Below, one piece after another: positions 2,447 through 22,715 of a stretch of 25,865 nt of DNA. The notes under the pieces were generated by a model. It had not been told where the DNA came from. It saw only the letters and a list, made by a program, of their open reading frames with translations, and did no database searches. The translations under genes were made by a program, and so were the position numbers. Source of the stretch: a virus. The stretch covers positions 1 through 25,865 of the IMG/VR virus record IMGVR_UViG_3300033571_006587. One strand, 5' to 3'. Every line of letters starts with the position of its first letter. The first letter of the stretch is position 1.

Positions 2447-4942
2447 GTGATCAAGATTAACGGCAAAGTAGGAAGATCCGTATTAGCTATAGCGATGGCA
2501 TGCTTGCCATTGTTTTGGGTTACCCCAGCTAGTGCTAGTCAAACAAATTTATTAGAAGCTCAGCAACAGCTAGCTGTAGCTCAGCAAGAATTGTCTAGTG
2601 CTTCTGCTGCATTGCAGTTGGCCAATGCTAGTGTTTCTGCTGCAACGACTGTTAGAGATCAGGCTCAGGCAAACCTTAGCTCTGCATCTGCAGCCTGGGA
2701 GGCATCCAGAGTTACCATTCCTGGAACTAGCACAACGACTACTCAGAACGTAGTACGAAATGGAACATTTGATAGCACAGCTCACTGGTCTGGCGTAGTG
2801 GCTAGCAACACTGTTTACACTGGTGGATCATCACCTATTATTATTAACGGAACACTAAAGGGTTCTTGGAACTCAGGGTTTTTTGTTCTACAAACAGGAA
2901 CATTCCCAAGCCCAACAAGACAGGTTGAGTTTGCAGTAGATGTCTGGAACTTTGACACCAACGAGGGTAATAGAACCAACAACCCCGACTATTACCGTAT
3001 TGAATTTCGAACCTATGCTGCTGACGGTACCAGGCTAAACTACTTTAACTTACAGCACAGCCAATGGCATGGCTGGCTTACTAGAGGTGCAACCTACACC
3101 TTTGATCGTGATGCAGTAACCTGGGATGTTGGATTCCGTATGGCTGACAATGGATACTGGGCAGGTGCATTTGGTCCTGTAATGGATAACGTTAGGGTTA
3201 ATGCTACTATGGGGACTACAACTCCAGATACTTATACCTATGGACAAGCAGAGACTCAGGCCAGAGATGCTGCTCAGCAAGCACTTCAGTCTGCCCAGGC
3301 AGCACTCAACTCTGCTATCACAGCACAAACTGCAGCTACAGCAAGATTAGATGCAGCAATTGATGAGGTAGTTAGACTTACTAATCTAGTTGAGGACCTT
3401 ACACCACATCTAAATGCTCCTACAGGTCTAACGGCGGTAATTAACGGAAACAATGTTGACCTATCCTGGAATGCACCACAGTCTAATTCTTCTGGTGTAG
3501 AGGTAGAGAGCTATGCGATTATGTGGAGTGTTGACAATTTTAATGAGACTGGATGGGGATGGAGTCACGGTCTTACAAGTGTAAGTATCCCACTAAGCAT
3601 TCTTGATCAATACGGTGGACTTGGAAAGGTGTTTCAGTTTGCAATTCGGGCAGACAATAACACACAAGCTATTTATTCTTCAAGGTCAAATATTGCATCC
3701 CTACAAACTACTGCACCACCTTGGTGGATGATTTCATTTAATGAAGGAGACTTGGTTTCTGTTAGTGCCCCAGCAGGCTATGTCTTTGCAAATGCCACAG
3801 CGTGGTATGGATCACCAACAGATGTGTCTTGTGGAGCCACTGTATCCGATGTAGTTAATCAAGTTCTTGTTGGTAACTCAAGTGCATCTTTTTATGCCGA
3901 TAACGGAATGTTTGGAGATCCTTGTGGTGGTGTTGTAAAGGTTTTGAGAATGAGCACACCAATTACCACAATGGTAGAAGTTAGCCAAAGTCCGAGTGTG
4001 TCTCCAGAAATTACAGAGTCTCCAACAGTATCTGCAGAACCAACTTCAAGTCCAGAGACTCAGTCTCCAACAACATCTAGTGAGTCTGCAGTTTCTAGTT
4101 CTCCAGGTTTGCCACCATTGTTGCCAAACCCACAGCCAGCAGTGCCACCTAGCCTTCAGCCAGTTCAGCCTAACCCAGAACCTGTTGTACAGCCAGACCC
4201 GCAACCCACACAGCCCCCAGTAGTAGAACCAAGTCCAGAACCTTCCCCAGAACCCTCAACAGAACCTTCACCTGAGCCTACCCCAGATCCCGATCCGACT
4301 CCTGAGCCCACTCCAGAACCAACGCCAGAGCCAGAGCCGACCCCAGAACCCACACCAGAACCGACTGTAGAGCCAGAACCCACCCCAGAGCCAACCCCAA
4401 CGGAAGAGCCAGAGCCAGAACCGACACCAACCCCAACGGAAGAGCCCACAGAAGAACCTTCACCATCACCTACCCCTATTCCTGAACCTGAACCTATTGT
4501 ACCAGAAGACAAGGTTGAGATAAAGGAAGAAATCTCTGCTGAAAATATTGAAGATCTTGTAGAAGAGCTTGCAGAAATTCAGCCACAGCTACTGACTGAA
4601 GAACAGCAAACGTTGATTGTTGCTGCAGCCTTAGAAGTATTTGCTGATGCAGAGCAAGGATCTCCTGAGTATGAAGCAGCTCTAGATGCATTGCTACTTG
4701 TAGCTCAGGCAGATGACATTATTCTAGACGAGGAGCTTGCTGCCATCCCACTTATTGGTGATGTGGCAGGTGCAGCGGTAGAAATATTTAACGCACTTGG
4801 AAATGCTGGAGCAGACATGTCTCCACAGGTCCGTGAGCAATCAGAAAAGGTTGTTATTGCTGCAGTTATCGTAACTCAGGTTGCCATGACTGCAACAGCA
4901 GCAGCCACAAGTGCAGCAGCAGCTGCAGCAAGGAGACCATAA
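2447..4942 (+). CDS. Large exported protein with coiled coils, FnIII domain and Pro-Glu-rich linker
   Basis: 831 residues; function not recognised. A signal peptide is clear (residues 1-30, basic start, hydrophobic core, cut after PASA). Then come an Ala/Gln-rich coiled coil (about 35-90), a jelly-roll-like region beginning NGTFDSTAHWSG (about 105-250), a second coiled coil (about 260-310), a fibronectin type III domain (about 324-422), a small domain with two cysteines, a long Ser/Thr then Pro-Glu-Pro linker (about 515-685), an acidic helical part, and an Ala-rich hydrophobic end (about 800-825) that could be a membrane anchor. It looks like a cell-surface protein, not a virion part, because virion proteins are not normally exported. 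The start is odd: the GTG at 2447 overlaps its own AGGAG, while an in-frame ATT at 2456 has better spacing. It overlaps the next gene by 1 bp (TAATG). Confidence 0.85.
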   Translation: MIKINGKVGRSVLAIAMACLPLFWVTPASASQTNLLEAQQQLAVAQQELSSASAALQLANASVSAATTVRDQAQANLSSASAAWEASRVTIPGTSTTTTQNVVRNGTFDSTAHWSGVVASNTVYTGGSSPIIINGTLKGSWNSGFFVLQTGTFPSPTRQVEFAVDVWNFDTNEGNRTNNPDYYRIEFRTYAADGTRLNYFNLQHSQWHGWLTRGATYTFDRDAVTWDVGFRMADNGYWAGAFGPVMDNVRVNATMGTTTPDTYTYGQAETQARDAAQQALQSAQAALNSAITAQTAATARLDAAIDEVVRLTNLVEDLTPHLNAPTGLTAVINGNNVDLSWNAPQSNSSGVEVESYAIMWSVDNFNETGWGWSHGLTSVSIPLSILDQYGGLGKVFQFAIRADNNTQAIYSSRSNIASLQTTAPPWWMISFNEGDLVSVSAPAGYVFANATAWYGSPTDVSCGATVSDVVNQVLVGNSSASFYADNGMFGDPCGGVVKVLRMSTPITTMVEVSQSPSVSPEITESPTVSAEPTSSPETQSPTTSSESAVSSSPGLPPLLPNPQPAVPPSLQPVQPNPEPVVQPDPQPTQPPVVEPSPEPSPEPSTEPSPEPTPDPDPTPEPTPEPTPEPEPTPEPTPEPTVEPEPTPEPTPTEEPEPEPTPTPTEEPTEEPSPSPTPIPEPEPIVPEDKVEIKEEISAENIEDLVEELAEIQPQLLTEEQQTLIVAAALEVFADAEQGSPEYEAALDALLLVAQADDIILDEELAAIPLIGDVAGAAVEIFNALGNAGADMSPQVREQSEKVVIAAVIVTQVAMTATAAATSAAAAAARRP
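4219..4497 (+). repeat. Low-complexity Pro-Glu-Pro-Thr coding repeat
   Basis: Roughly 280 bp of short degenerate CCAGAACC / CCAACCCCA units encode PEP(T/S) repeats in the exported protein. Pro-Glu-rich linkers are typical of wall-spanning surface proteins. The mirror ORF on the minus strand (Gly-Ser-Val rich) is only the shadow of this repeat. Such repeats change length easily by slippage. Confidence 0.85.
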
Positions 4943-5991: not shown

Positions 5992-6768
5992 ATGAAAAAG
6001 ATTAGCGTTGCATCTGCCATTGCTTTGGCAGCAGCATCACTTGTTGGAATTGCTCCAGCACAGGCATCACAAGTAGACACTATTGCAATAATTGACACTC
6101 AATTCGATGGTGCAAATGTAGGATCAAATGTTACGCACGTTTGCGTAACTGCATGCACGAACAACTCAACACCAAGACCTGGAAATAGGATTCAGGCTGG
6201 ACATTATAATCACGGCATCGTGATGGCAGAAATTGTTCGCAAATCAAATCCGACAGCTCGCCTAATCCTTATTCGTGCTGGAAGCACTAAGGTTGGAGAG
6301 GTAACTAGCCAAGGTTTGCTAGACGCTCTTCGTTGGGTAGAACGCAATAGAGCTGCTTTGGGGATTGATGCTGTCTCTACATCACTAAATGCAGGCAATG
6401 GTTCACGATGCACTGCGACTGGTGGAGTTAGACACTCCGACGTCGTAGCAGTAGTTGACTCTATTTCAAATGCAGGTACACAAATCTTGGCCTCAGCTGG
6501 CAATGGCTCTAACCCAAATCTTTTGGGGTACCCAGCCTGCATTCCAAATGTAATTGCTATTGGAATTGATTCTGGCATTAGGGATGGAGCTAATCATCCA
6601 GGACTAGACTTTTTAGTTTCTGCTAATGGAGAAAACTTTAGTACTAGTATTGGTTTAGTTAACTGGGCAACCTCATCAACACTAACGGCAATGACTGCAG
6701 CAGCTTGGGGAACCTTCGTGCACACACCAAACACAAAACAAAAACTACGCCTGAATGTGGTAAACTAG
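5992..6768 (+). CDS. Exported subtilisin-like (S8) serine protease
   Basis: 258 residues. A signal peptide (residues 1-26, cut after AQA) is followed at once by the catalytic-Asp strand IAIIDTQFD (Asp 35). The His motif is NHGIVMAEI (His 74), the oxyanion Asn sits in ASAGNGS (Asn 171), and STSIG near Ser 219 matches the catalytic-Ser position, although the usual GTSxAxP is degenerate. The order and spacing fit a short subtilase with no pro-domain, smaller than typical secreted ones (about 350 or more residues). Cysteine pairs in the mature part may form disulfides. Exported proteases are uncommon in phages; it may trim surface proteins or act with the large exported protein upstream. Confidence 0.85.
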   Translation: MKKISVASAIALAAASLVGIAPAQASQVDTIAIIDTQFDGANVGSNVTHVCVTACTNNSTPRPGNRIQAGHYNHGIVMAEIVRKSNPTARLILIRAGSTKVGEVTSQGLLDALRWVERNRAALGIDAVSTSLNAGNGSRCTATGGVRHSDVVAVVDSISNAGTQILASAGNGSNPNLLGYPACIPNVIAIGIDSGIRDGANHPGLDFLVSANGENFSTSIGLVNWATSSTLTAMTAAAWGTFVHTPNTKQKLRLNVVN

Positions 6769-20250: not shown

Positions 20251-20380
20251 GTATAGTGTTGGTTTGGCCACGGCACGGACAGAGGAAGAGCTAAAGCAAT
20301 TAGCCAAGGAATACCTTGAGAAGAAAGCCCAACAAGAAAAAGAAGCTAAGGACGATAATGCCACTGCACGTAGAAATTAA
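20237..20380 (+). CDS. Small charged helical protein
   Basis: 47 residues, almost all helical and strongly charged (EEELKQLAKEYLEKKAQQEK). It starts 14 bp inside the previous gene with GGGAG upstream. It may be a coiled-coil dimer. Function unknown. Confidence 0.58.
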   Translation: MSQHEYSVGLATARTEEELKQLAKEYLEKKAQQEKEAKDDNATARRN

Positions 20381-20597
20381 GGTAAACGATACACTATTAA
20401 ATCAAATTCACATTGGTAGAGCCATGGGCGGAACAAAGCCAGACGACCTTAACGTTTATCTAGTTGTTGATGGCGACAAGCCAAGATCATTTTCTGACTG
20501 GGATGCGGAGGGTATTCCATTCACACATCGATATGGTGACGGAGCAGAGGTATGCGTGATTAAGGCATTACAAGCATTGGGGTACAACGGTGGGTAG
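20358..20597 (+). CDS. Small conserved phage protein
   Basis: 79 residues from the ATG at 20358, which overlaps the previous gene by 23 bp. The start MPLHVEIKVNDTLLNQIHIG and the later FTHRYGDGAEVCVIKALQAL look like a family common in actinophages, but I know no function. The fold is probably beta strands followed by a helix. Confidence 0.7.
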   Translation: MPLHVEIKVNDTLLNQIHIGRAMGGTKPDDLNVYLVVDGDKPRSFSDWDAEGIPFTHRYGDGAEVCVIKALQALGYNGG

Positions 20598-20823
20598 ATT
20601 GCTAGACCTTGATGACTTCCTAGACCCAAAGAGCCTTACTCCTCAGCAACTGTATAAACTACAGTCTGAGACTTGGGCACAGGGAGCAGACTATGAGCGT
20701 GAACGCATTCTCGGTTTGCGTAAAGAAATTATCAACTGCGTAGTTGACTACGGACTAATGCCTGAAACTTATTTGCGTGTAATGCGTGATCTTGAAGAGC
20801 TAATCAAGGGAGAGCAGAAGTGA
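20590..20823 (+). CDS. Helical hypothetical protein ending in GEQK
   Basis: 77 residues from a GTG that overlaps the previous gene. It is helical, with a leucine-rich start LLDLDDFLD. The last codons GGAGAGCAGAAG are also the ribosome site of the next gene, so its last four residues (GEQK) are set by that cassette. Confidence 0.66.
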   Translation: MGRLLDLDDFLDPKSLTPQQLYKLQSETWAQGADYERERILGLRKEIINCVVDYGLMPETYLRVMRDLEELIKGEQK

Positions 20824-20921
20824 AACTCGCACGAACGCACGAAAACAGCTCAAATCCTAGATTTGTGGATACTGAAATCCTAGATTTTCGCACGAACACA
20901 CAAAAAGGAGAGCAGAAGTGA
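20820..20921 (+). CDS. Very small ORF that may be a repeat region
   Basis: 33 residues from a GTGA overlap, ending GEQK. The DNA holds two copies of CGCACGAAC (20828, 20889) and two of AAATCCTAGATTT (20852, 20875), so the region may be a repeat or operator rather than a real gene. The start and stop both sit on the GGAGAGCAGAAGTGA cassette. Confidence 0.4.
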   Translation: MKLARTHENSSNPRFVDTEILDFRTNTQKGEQK

Positions 20922-20977
20922 CTAATCCTAGTTTTGGCGAGTTGCTAATCCAGAATTTGGCAGGAGAGCAGAAGTGA
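20918..20977 (+). CDS. Minimal ORF between two start cassettes
   Basis: 19 residues, ending GEQK. It begins and ends on the same start cassette as its neighbours and contains AATCCTAG, related to the repeat just upstream. It may be only a bridge that keeps ribosomes moving between genes. Confidence 0.35.
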   Translation: MTNPSFGELLIQNLAGEQK

Positions 20978-21210
20978 GTCAAACAAACAATGCGGAGCGT
21001 CTTTATGATTGGGCACAACAAGTTATGCAGGTTGAGTTTGTTAAGCTAATCAATAAAAGATTTGGTGGAGTTGTTCTTCACGATGAGAGGGATGCTAAAG
21101 TCGTTACCGCTGCACTTGATGCACTAATCAGCGACATAACTAAAGTAGAAAACGTAAGCGAACTTGGTTTGGGAGTTCCATTTATTACAGTAAGGGGAAG
21201 GCAGAAGTGA
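20974..21210 (+). CDS. Helical hypothetical protein
   Basis: 78 residues from GTG with GGAGAG 5 bp upstream. Helix-rich (LYDWAQQVMQVEFVKLINK). It ends RGRQK, a variant of the repeated end. Function unknown. Confidence 0.68.
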   Translation: MSQTNNAERLYDWAQQVMQVEFVKLINKRFGGVVLHDERDAKVVTAALDALISDITKVENVSELGLGVPFITVRGRQK

Positions 21211-21356
21211 GTGACAAAGACAAGGCAGTAGCTGATGCTATCAGAATGCTGGTAAATGCAGGATATGAGGTCATGTATGAAGAAGCTCCTATTGGTAGAG
21301 CTGGAACTGGTATTCACCTACACCTGCTAGATGAGCTAGACGGAGAGCAGAAATGA
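21207..21356 (+). CDS. Small hypothetical protein
   Basis: 49 residues from a GTG that overlaps the previous stop. Sequence AIRMLVNAGYEVMYEE then TGIHLHLLDEL suggests an alpha-beta unit. It ends DGEQK, again formed by the cassette. Function unknown. Confidence 0.6.
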   Translation: MSDKDKAVADAIRMLVNAGYEVMYEEAPIGRAGTGIHLHLLDELDGEQK

Positions 21357-21445
21357 GTCTACAAAATATTCTTGACATCATGCAGAGTAGTCTGATAGTA
21401 TTACTTGCAGTAAATATTTATATACTTAGCAAAAGGCAAAAATGA
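21353..21445 (+). CDS. Single-helix membrane peptide
   Basis: 30 residues with one hydrophobic helix (SLIVLLAVNIYIL) and a basic end (SKRQK). The start ATGA overlaps the previous stop; the end overlaps the next ATG. Function unknown. Confidence 0.58.
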   Translation: MSLQNILDIMQSSLIVLLAVNIYILSKRQK

Positions 21446-21876
21446 CTGAGATGATTGGATACTACCAAGAAGATGAGATTAGAAATCTTTTTATTGGTAG
21501 AAAAGTTATAAAGGCTGAGGGTTCTGACCTTACCCTGGACGATGGAACTATCCTACAGATTATTCCTAATGATGGTGGATGTAGCTGTGGTGCTGGTGAC
21601 TACTATCTGGATAACATTAGCAAGTTTGACAATGTTATTACAAATGTAGAGATTAAGGATACTAGCGGTGAAGCAGGTACTTGGGATGAAGACGCTCACA
21701 CATACCAGATATTCGTATATTCTGGCGGTATTTCAACATCAATAGCTGATATCAAGGGTGATGATGGTAATGGATACTATGGTACTGGGTTTGATATTTA
21801 TGTAAAGTACCGTCCAGGACCACCAAAGCCAAGACCTGTAAACATTTTTGATGAGAGAAATTGGATAAAGCAGTGA
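21442..21876 (+). CDS. DUF7448-like protein
   Basis: 144 residues. The segment LTLDDGTILQIIPNDGGCSCGAGDYYL, here given in two parts as LTLDDGTILQ and GGCSCGAGDYYL, matches a small family I recall as DUF7448, found in actinobacterial phages and hosts. It is beta-rich. Function unknown. It is translated from an ATGA overlap with the membrane peptide and overlaps the next gene. Confidence 0.75.
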   Translation: MTEMIGYYQEDEIRNLFIGRKVIKAEGSDLTLDDGTILQIIPNDGGCSCGAGDYYLDNISKFDNVITNVEIKDTSGEAGTWDEDAHTYQIFVYSGGISTSIADIKGDDGNGYYGTGFDIYVKYRPGPPKPRPVNIFDERNWIKQ

Positions 21877-22399: not shown

Positions 22400-22715
22400 A
22401 AGATTTAGCACATCAGATGTTTATGTATTTGAACATGTAGGTGGATTTATACAGTGCTGTGGATGCATTATGGGGGACGATTGGGACCACGAGACTCCTC
22501 GTGACATGCTTGCACATCTTGATGAGCATGAAGCAGCAGGGCATGACATAGGTAAGTCTCGTACTAGGATTCTAGAAGAATACCCAGACCTAGATATTAA
22601 GATTGAACCATACGTTAGATCTCCAGAGGAAGAAGAAAGAATTAGGGCAAAGCTAAAGGCAGCCTTTGAACAGCACCCACCACAGAAATTTAGAGATAGG
22701 AGTAACGGTGAGTAA
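22389..22715 (+). CDS. Conserved phage protein with CCGC and His sites
   Basis: 108 residues. The N-terminal part has YVFEHVGGFIQCCGC followed by a His-rich stretch (MLAHLDEHEAAGHD), which together look like a zinc finger. The layout matches a family seen in actinophages, function unknown. It overlaps the previous gene by 11 bp and the next by 8 bp. Confidence 0.74.
   Translation: MSFERFSTSDVYVFEHVGGFIQCCGCIMGDDWDHETPRDMLAHLDEHEAAGHDIGKSRTRILEEYPDLDIKIEPYVRSPEEEERIRAKLKAAFEQHPPQKFRDRSNGE

Follow-up and report, generated by a model that had tools for sequence, protein, structure and literature searches.

The window (the whole 25,865-base IMG/VR virus record that was analysed) contains an array of small genes joined by copies of one 15-base word, GGAGAGCAGAAGTGA, which probably acts as a short coding adaptor: it would couple translation and supply a stretch of common homology, allowing genes to be exchanged without damage to their neighbours. 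The word was observed on genes that are not homologous to one another; the neighbours of a gene change at the word, identity falls off at its edge, the C-terminal tail that it encodes is removable and halves of genes are exchanged around a second word, ERERIIKLL. The data suggest that a group of uncultured bacterial viruses has a natural plug-in mechanism by which genes, and even gene halves, are swapped. It has long been asked how phages exchange genes freely without breakage, and the customary answer is random recombination with selection acting afterwards. In this array the boundary would be a defined and reusable 15-bp coding adaptor, with a second word playing the same part inside genes, which makes the contribution of short shared words to mosaicism directly testable. 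Such an adaptor would also explain the C-terminal tail common to unrelated proteins and could serve as a marker for exchangeable small phage genes in metagenomes.

The junction word in the window

Gene calls were made within this analysis and all coordinates given for the array are on the + strand. A word search located three exact copies of GGAGAGCAGAAGTGA (20809..20823, 20907..20921 and 20963..20977), one copy with two mismatches (GGAAGGCAGAAGTGA, 21196..21210) and an ATGA version with one mismatch (GGAGAGCAGAAATGA, 21342..21356); the five copies between 20809 and 21356 join six small genes, three of which, ending at 20823, 20921 and 20977, have the exact word as their 3′ end. Each copy consists of the final four codons and stop of the upstream gene (G-E-Q-K-stop in that frame), the ribosome site of the next gene, with the Shine–Dalgarno GGAG placed 7 nt before its start, and a 4 nt stop/start overlap; this overlap, GTGA or ATGA, is present at all array junctions of the window. 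With up to three mismatches allowed, six matches were obtained in the whole window against 0.91 expected from shuffled sequence, and five of the six lie on one strand inside 548 bases. The spacer AGCAGAA was found at none of the other listed gene starts of the window, which have other Shine–Dalgarno and spacer sequences.

A sequence-only reading of this DNA had counted six junctions with the same cassette. This stands for five of them, three exact and two near; the sixth, AAAAGGCAAAAATGA at 21431..21445, has five mismatches, is conserved in most of the window clade and is at best a degenerate relative of the cassette. The same reading had the proteins at all six junctions ending in GEQK, which is true of four, the other two ending in GRQK and KRQK, and had called these proteins unrelated, which fits most of them, although a recurrent ERERI-type carrier is present.

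That carrier is represented by the first gene to end in the cassette (20590..20823, 77 residues, ending ELIKGEQK*). It is chimeric: its C-terminal half is shared with contigs L061 and L093 and its N-terminal half is not, and homology to these relatives starts at an internal coding word for ERERI, GAGCGTGAACGCATT (20695..20709). An AlphaFold model predicts the product to be mostly helical (mean pLDDT 72.9). Next come two mini-ORFs with the cassette on both sides. The 33-residue mini-ORF (20820..20921) contains the direct repeats GCACGAACGCACGAAAA/GCACGAACACACAAAAA and could be a DNA element instead of a gene. It has its start, and the DNA CTCGCACGAACGCACGAAAACAGCTCAAA, in common with a mini-ORF at 6262–6360 of contig L110; in both, a second copy of the GCACGAACGCACGAAAA repeat lies just before the cassette, with differing palindromes between the copies, and the shared DNA may be an operator-like or iteron-like element. 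The 19-residue mini-ORF (20918..20977), for which a relative was looked for and none was found, is possibly a deletion remnant.

No small array gene was named above threshold by Pfam or PHROGs. Among the other window genes are WhiB, ribonucleotide reductase, ThyX, Hsp20 and glutaredoxin, and an actinobacterial host is inferred, as the WhiB gene points to one. Two further products are unusual in a phage: a large Pro/Thr/Glu-rich protein with a signal-peptide-like start (2447–4942) and a second secreted-looking protein, subtilase-like by eye (5992–6768).

Arrays in related viruses

An exact scan of IMG/VR with GGAGAGCAGAAGTGA matched 110 stretches. Many such matches are expected by chance, and this raw count was therefore not taken as evidence; only junctions, clusters and context were. 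Of 40 chosen viral records, 37 carry the cassette, and a reversed-pattern control is present in almost none. The copies are mostly clustered over about 0.2–2 kb in short arrays, for example four copies inside 522 bases on one 154-kb contig and eight in about 2.1 kb on another, so that up to eight junctions of one contig reuse the same word. The cassette junctions connect many small genes without a known family: two scans gave 82 genes with the cassette on both sides (77 proteins, 67 families, 52 contigs, median length 66 residues).

Other contigs use a second dialect, GGAGAGAACAAGTGA, which encodes GENK in place of GEQK and dominates the matches of the second scan, made with a pattern that left the Q/N residue open. 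Pairs of copies within a contig have the same dialect at a frequency of 0.862, compared with 0.742 after shuffling (p=0.0013), and GENK accounts for only one of the 37 additional copies seen in GEQK contigs. The tail peptide variants are GEQK, GENK, GEKK and GRQK. Among cultured phages (50,697 phage records) the array region had no DNA match and an ERERI-type protein had none by tblastn; in the search for cultured relatives, DUF7448 and one large window protein gave nothing closer than distant matches. A degenerate IKGE-x-K word was also sought in bacterial genomes, but its 90 single matches, in unrelated taxa and without an array, were put down to chance.

Gene-content turnover at the junctions

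The right-hand end of the array is constant in the window clade. A hydrophobic gene of 30 residues (21353..21445) forms the anchor and is followed by a conserved flank, the DUF7448 gene (21442..21876; Pfam PF24240, E=4e-14); both are kept in L055, L046, L061, L065, L093 and L120 while the upstream neighbours vary. The neighbour is the 49-residue gene (21207..21356) in the window, L055 and L046, a KKIHF gene in L061 and L093 and an ERERI-type gene in L065 and L120, and the 49-residue gene itself has three different upstream neighbours in the three phages that have it. The 78-residue gene (20974..21210) is 82–83% identical to a gene of L027/L124, a contig that is otherwise different and in which the same cassette attaches other neighbours to the homologue. 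Gene content does change precisely at these sites, which is the check that the sequence-only reading had set: the same gene is found with differing neighbours and still with the same joining word. Relatives in which the same genes have unrelated junctions, which would have spoken against the proposal, were seen at some junctions only, the KKIHF genes ending in GGATATAAGAAGTGA.

Among orthologous pairs with an identity of at least 50%, the neighbour had changed at 57 of 71 cassette junctions, compared with 49 of 155 other 4 nt overlaps; at an identity of at least 70% the counts were 38 of 51 and 6 of 97. In the window clade, 22 of 32 cassette/cassette junctions had changed, compared with one of 77 other 4 nt overlaps, which supports the sequence-only reading in its view of a copied junction and a hot spot for insertion or shuffling. 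Where the neighbour had changed and one junction was a cassette, the partner junction was also a cassette in 76 of 98 cases, compared with 22 of 442 where it was not. The contig pairs share ancestry and are not independent, so the p-values are too small and the turnover counts overstate independence; the array also lies in a variable region, and part of the turnover may be regional.

Identity profiles fall from about 0.87–0.9 in the kept gene to 0.25–0.37 from the first base past the cassette, and the upstream side mirrors this; the high identity inside the cassette is partly there by definition. A sharp edge at the gene end was dropped as stand-alone proof since controls show the same edge: 13 pairs with changed downstream neighbours at non-cassette junctions also break sharply at the gene edge. 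With selection for intact genes, such an edge is unremarkable by itself; the distinctive point is the persistence of a junction word that is part of the coding ends of unrelated genes.

Exchange within genes

Shuffling acts inside genes too, at a second word, and the sequence-only reading is to be corrected on this point. The commonest carriers of the cassette have the plan N-half, ERERIIKLL, C-half, with the C-half running to ALIKGE(Q/N)K. Comparison of 92 ORFs of this plan gave 33 pairs with only the N-half in common, 14 with only the C-half and two with both, and one complete 2×2 set combines two N-halves with two C-halves (L064, L087, L163 and L027). Identity shifts at the ERERIIKLL word, from 0.36 to 0.8 and from 0.75 to 0.24, and synonymous codons within the word are fixed (CGT 0.80 versus 0.32, CGC 0.80 versus 0.22 and CTG 0.62 versus 0.12 in the background). 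When the inner word was scanned alone, without reference to the cassette, 22 of 44 ORFs ended in GE-x-K with an RTGA overlap.

Several inner-word ORFs contain an internal, apparently fossil tail, LIKGENK, which is followed by another C-half. ORFs of L207, L208, L329, L337 and L340 have such an internal LIKGE(N)K-like stretch before a different C-terminal module and look as if two genes had fused after loss of the junction stop. Only two cases, L197 and L199, were noted of modules common to two genes of one contig; since most shared modules lie in different contigs, their exchange among genomes seems more frequent than local duplication. A literature search for the peptide ERERIIKLL returned no paper, and one on mosaicism in freshwater actinophages returned nothing useful.

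Alternative explanations

The junctions could have converged for the sake of translation only, each independently evolving the best ribosome site and re-initiation context, with its GTG start and 4 nt overlap. Good initiation sites are expected to have GGAG, its spacing and an A-rich stretch leading up to the start, and AAAGGAG extends the pairing with 16S rRNA. ATGA overlap pairs are, moreover, commonly coupled (PMC6728339). A spacer needs no fixed sequence, yet the 7 nt spacer is AGCAGAA at 25 of 40 GGAG-N7-RTGA junctions (counted after one ascertained copy per contig had been dropped) and at no other start in the window; mismatches to the cassette at 4 nt-overlap junctions are bimodal (0–3, then five and more), the GEQK and GENK dialects sort by contig and the ATC codon of the extended tail is fixed (0.91 versus 0.35 in the background), all of which makes convergence improbable. 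Conservation might instead belong to the peptide, GE(Q/N)K being a functional docking motif or tag at the C-terminus, to which identity at the DNA level would be secondary. The motif does recur on dozens of proteins, but its synonymous codons are fixed as well (GGA 0.94 versus 0.16 in the background) and the peptide itself varies among its four forms. In the glutaredoxin family, homologues from 30 contigs lack the tail and three have GEQK added with a different neighbour next; the tail on glutaredoxin is a removable addition. The structural model also places the tail, with modest confidence, in a frayed end, and a function of the peptide is very unlikely to account for the word.

Passive hitchhiking, that is, random illegitimate recombination with selection for intact genes and with ERERI-type genes merely as frequent partners, is unlikely but keeps some footing, as sharp gene-edge breakpoints do occur without the cassette and ERERI genes are its commonest carriers. 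Against this, the ERERI test that was used is not passed by 35 of 59 non-redundant carriers (two or three of the 35 are ERERI-like by eye), the cassette is kept at both ends when neighbours change and the breakpoints within genes are also at one fixed coding word. The single-ORF units, their common boundary sequence and the presence of mostly one array per contig would suit integron-like gene cassettes with a site-specific recombinase recognizing the word; this is highly improbable for an asymmetric coding word that contains both a start and a stop and shows no inverted repeat on inspection. A search of 31 incomplete records for a tyrosine recombinase (PF00589) likewise gave no match above cut-off. 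Every record is metagenomic, and assemblers might in principle have joined fragments at a short repeat. We regard such an artefact as scarcely credible: at the k values useful in assembly graphs, a repeat of 15–27 bp is short, and independent samples gave identical array orders (L064, L083 and L109; L061 and L093).

Mechanism and relation to known systems

If the adaptor reading is right, GGAGAGCAGAAGTGA would be a reusable junction word for small phage genes that lie in an array and are presumably co-transcribed, and any gene that begins and ends with it could be inserted with frame, stop, ribosome site and coupling left intact. Related phages in one cell are inferred to recombine at short identical words of about 15–27 bp by homologous or annealing strand exchange, possibly through an annealing or RecA/UvsX-type enzyme of the phage; the in-frame products would then be retained by selection. 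In this way the word would reach further gene ends while its copies in any one genome remain similar, as GEQK or GENK. Translation of the downstream gene would be coupled by termination–reinitiation, as the sequence-only reading also put forward; this is inferred from the architecture (PMC6728339), which has the stop/start overlap and a Shine–Dalgarno sequence within the upstream gene, and there are no expression data. RecA-family genes were found in three of the 31 incomplete records (the window relatives G001 and G002, and G022), and no RecT or ERF was found in these 31. Fifteen bases is short for homologous recombination, which counts against the proposed exchange; phage recombinases tolerate diverged partners, as lambda Red does (PMC2327257). 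A larger reading, which we offer tentatively and hold to be possible rather than probable, is a combinatorial system of two levels in which the stop/ribosome-site/start word shuffles small genes and the inner ERERIIKLL word, GAGCGTGAACGCATTATCAARCTGCTA, shuffles protein halves, both being kept as DNA for productive recombination; the whole would be an evolved generator of diversity for small proteins, possibly with anti-host or anti-defence roles.

The cassette belongs among the short conserved words at mosaic boundaries and is a member of neither SAS nor PeSL, because the SAS consensus and the PeSL promoter and stem-loop are not met. The Start-Associated Sequence (SAS), described from mycobacteriophages of Cluster K and Microbacterium phages of Cluster EF, is a 13 bp element of consensus GGGATAGGAGCCC or GGGAAAGGACCCC, located in one orientation at the ribosome site 3–7 bp upstream of start codons (PMC3203893, PMC7302621). 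Both elements are short, asymmetric, strongly conserved words over the ribosome site of many non-structural genes of different families, and both are conserved across unrelated genes beyond the pairing of 16S rRNA with the Shine–Dalgarno sequence, the cassette through its fixed spacer. Ribosome site and orientation agree as well, but the cassette runs through the start codon and fails the SAS consensus; it is also a coding word with a stop and a start inside it, and in many phages it lies at mosaic boundaries. The passages on SAS that were read in PMC3203893 and PMC7302621 describe no swapping of genes at the element.

The PeSL of T4-like phages are described as mobile regulatory cassettes of early promoter and stem-loop between genes (Arbiol 2010, Comeau 2014; cited in PMC4503421). 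They too are short conserved elements between genes, dense where small genes shuffle, and were proposed to mediate modular shuffling; the cassette shares this association with small-gene shuffling. It differs in being a coding 15-bp stop/ribosome-site/start word at 4 nt overlaps, which leave no room between the genes for either a promoter or a stem-loop, and here a second word shuffles gene halves. For lambdoid linker or boundary sequences, short conserved module flanks can serve homologous exchange (Clark 2001, discussed in PMC2327257), and the likeness lies in short conserved words that flank modules. The lambdoid flanks are few and module specific, whereas the cassette word is reused at up to eight junctions of a single contig. 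Integron cassettes, too, are small one-ORF units that share a boundary sequence and stand in arrays, but the word in the window is coding, has no attC-like structure and is accompanied by no integrase above cut-off in the 31 incomplete records.

A further common tail

A different C-terminal tail, HPPxxFRDxxNGE-stop, is encoded at 22674–22715 of the window (DNA CATCCACCA...TTTAGAGATA...AACGGAGAATAA) and was also seen in L055, L065, L117, L093, L120, L122, L123 and L200, on at least five unrelated proteins. The L122 protein that bears it is homologous to the product of 20358–20597 in the window, which is itself without the tail. This tail is possibly a third junction word.
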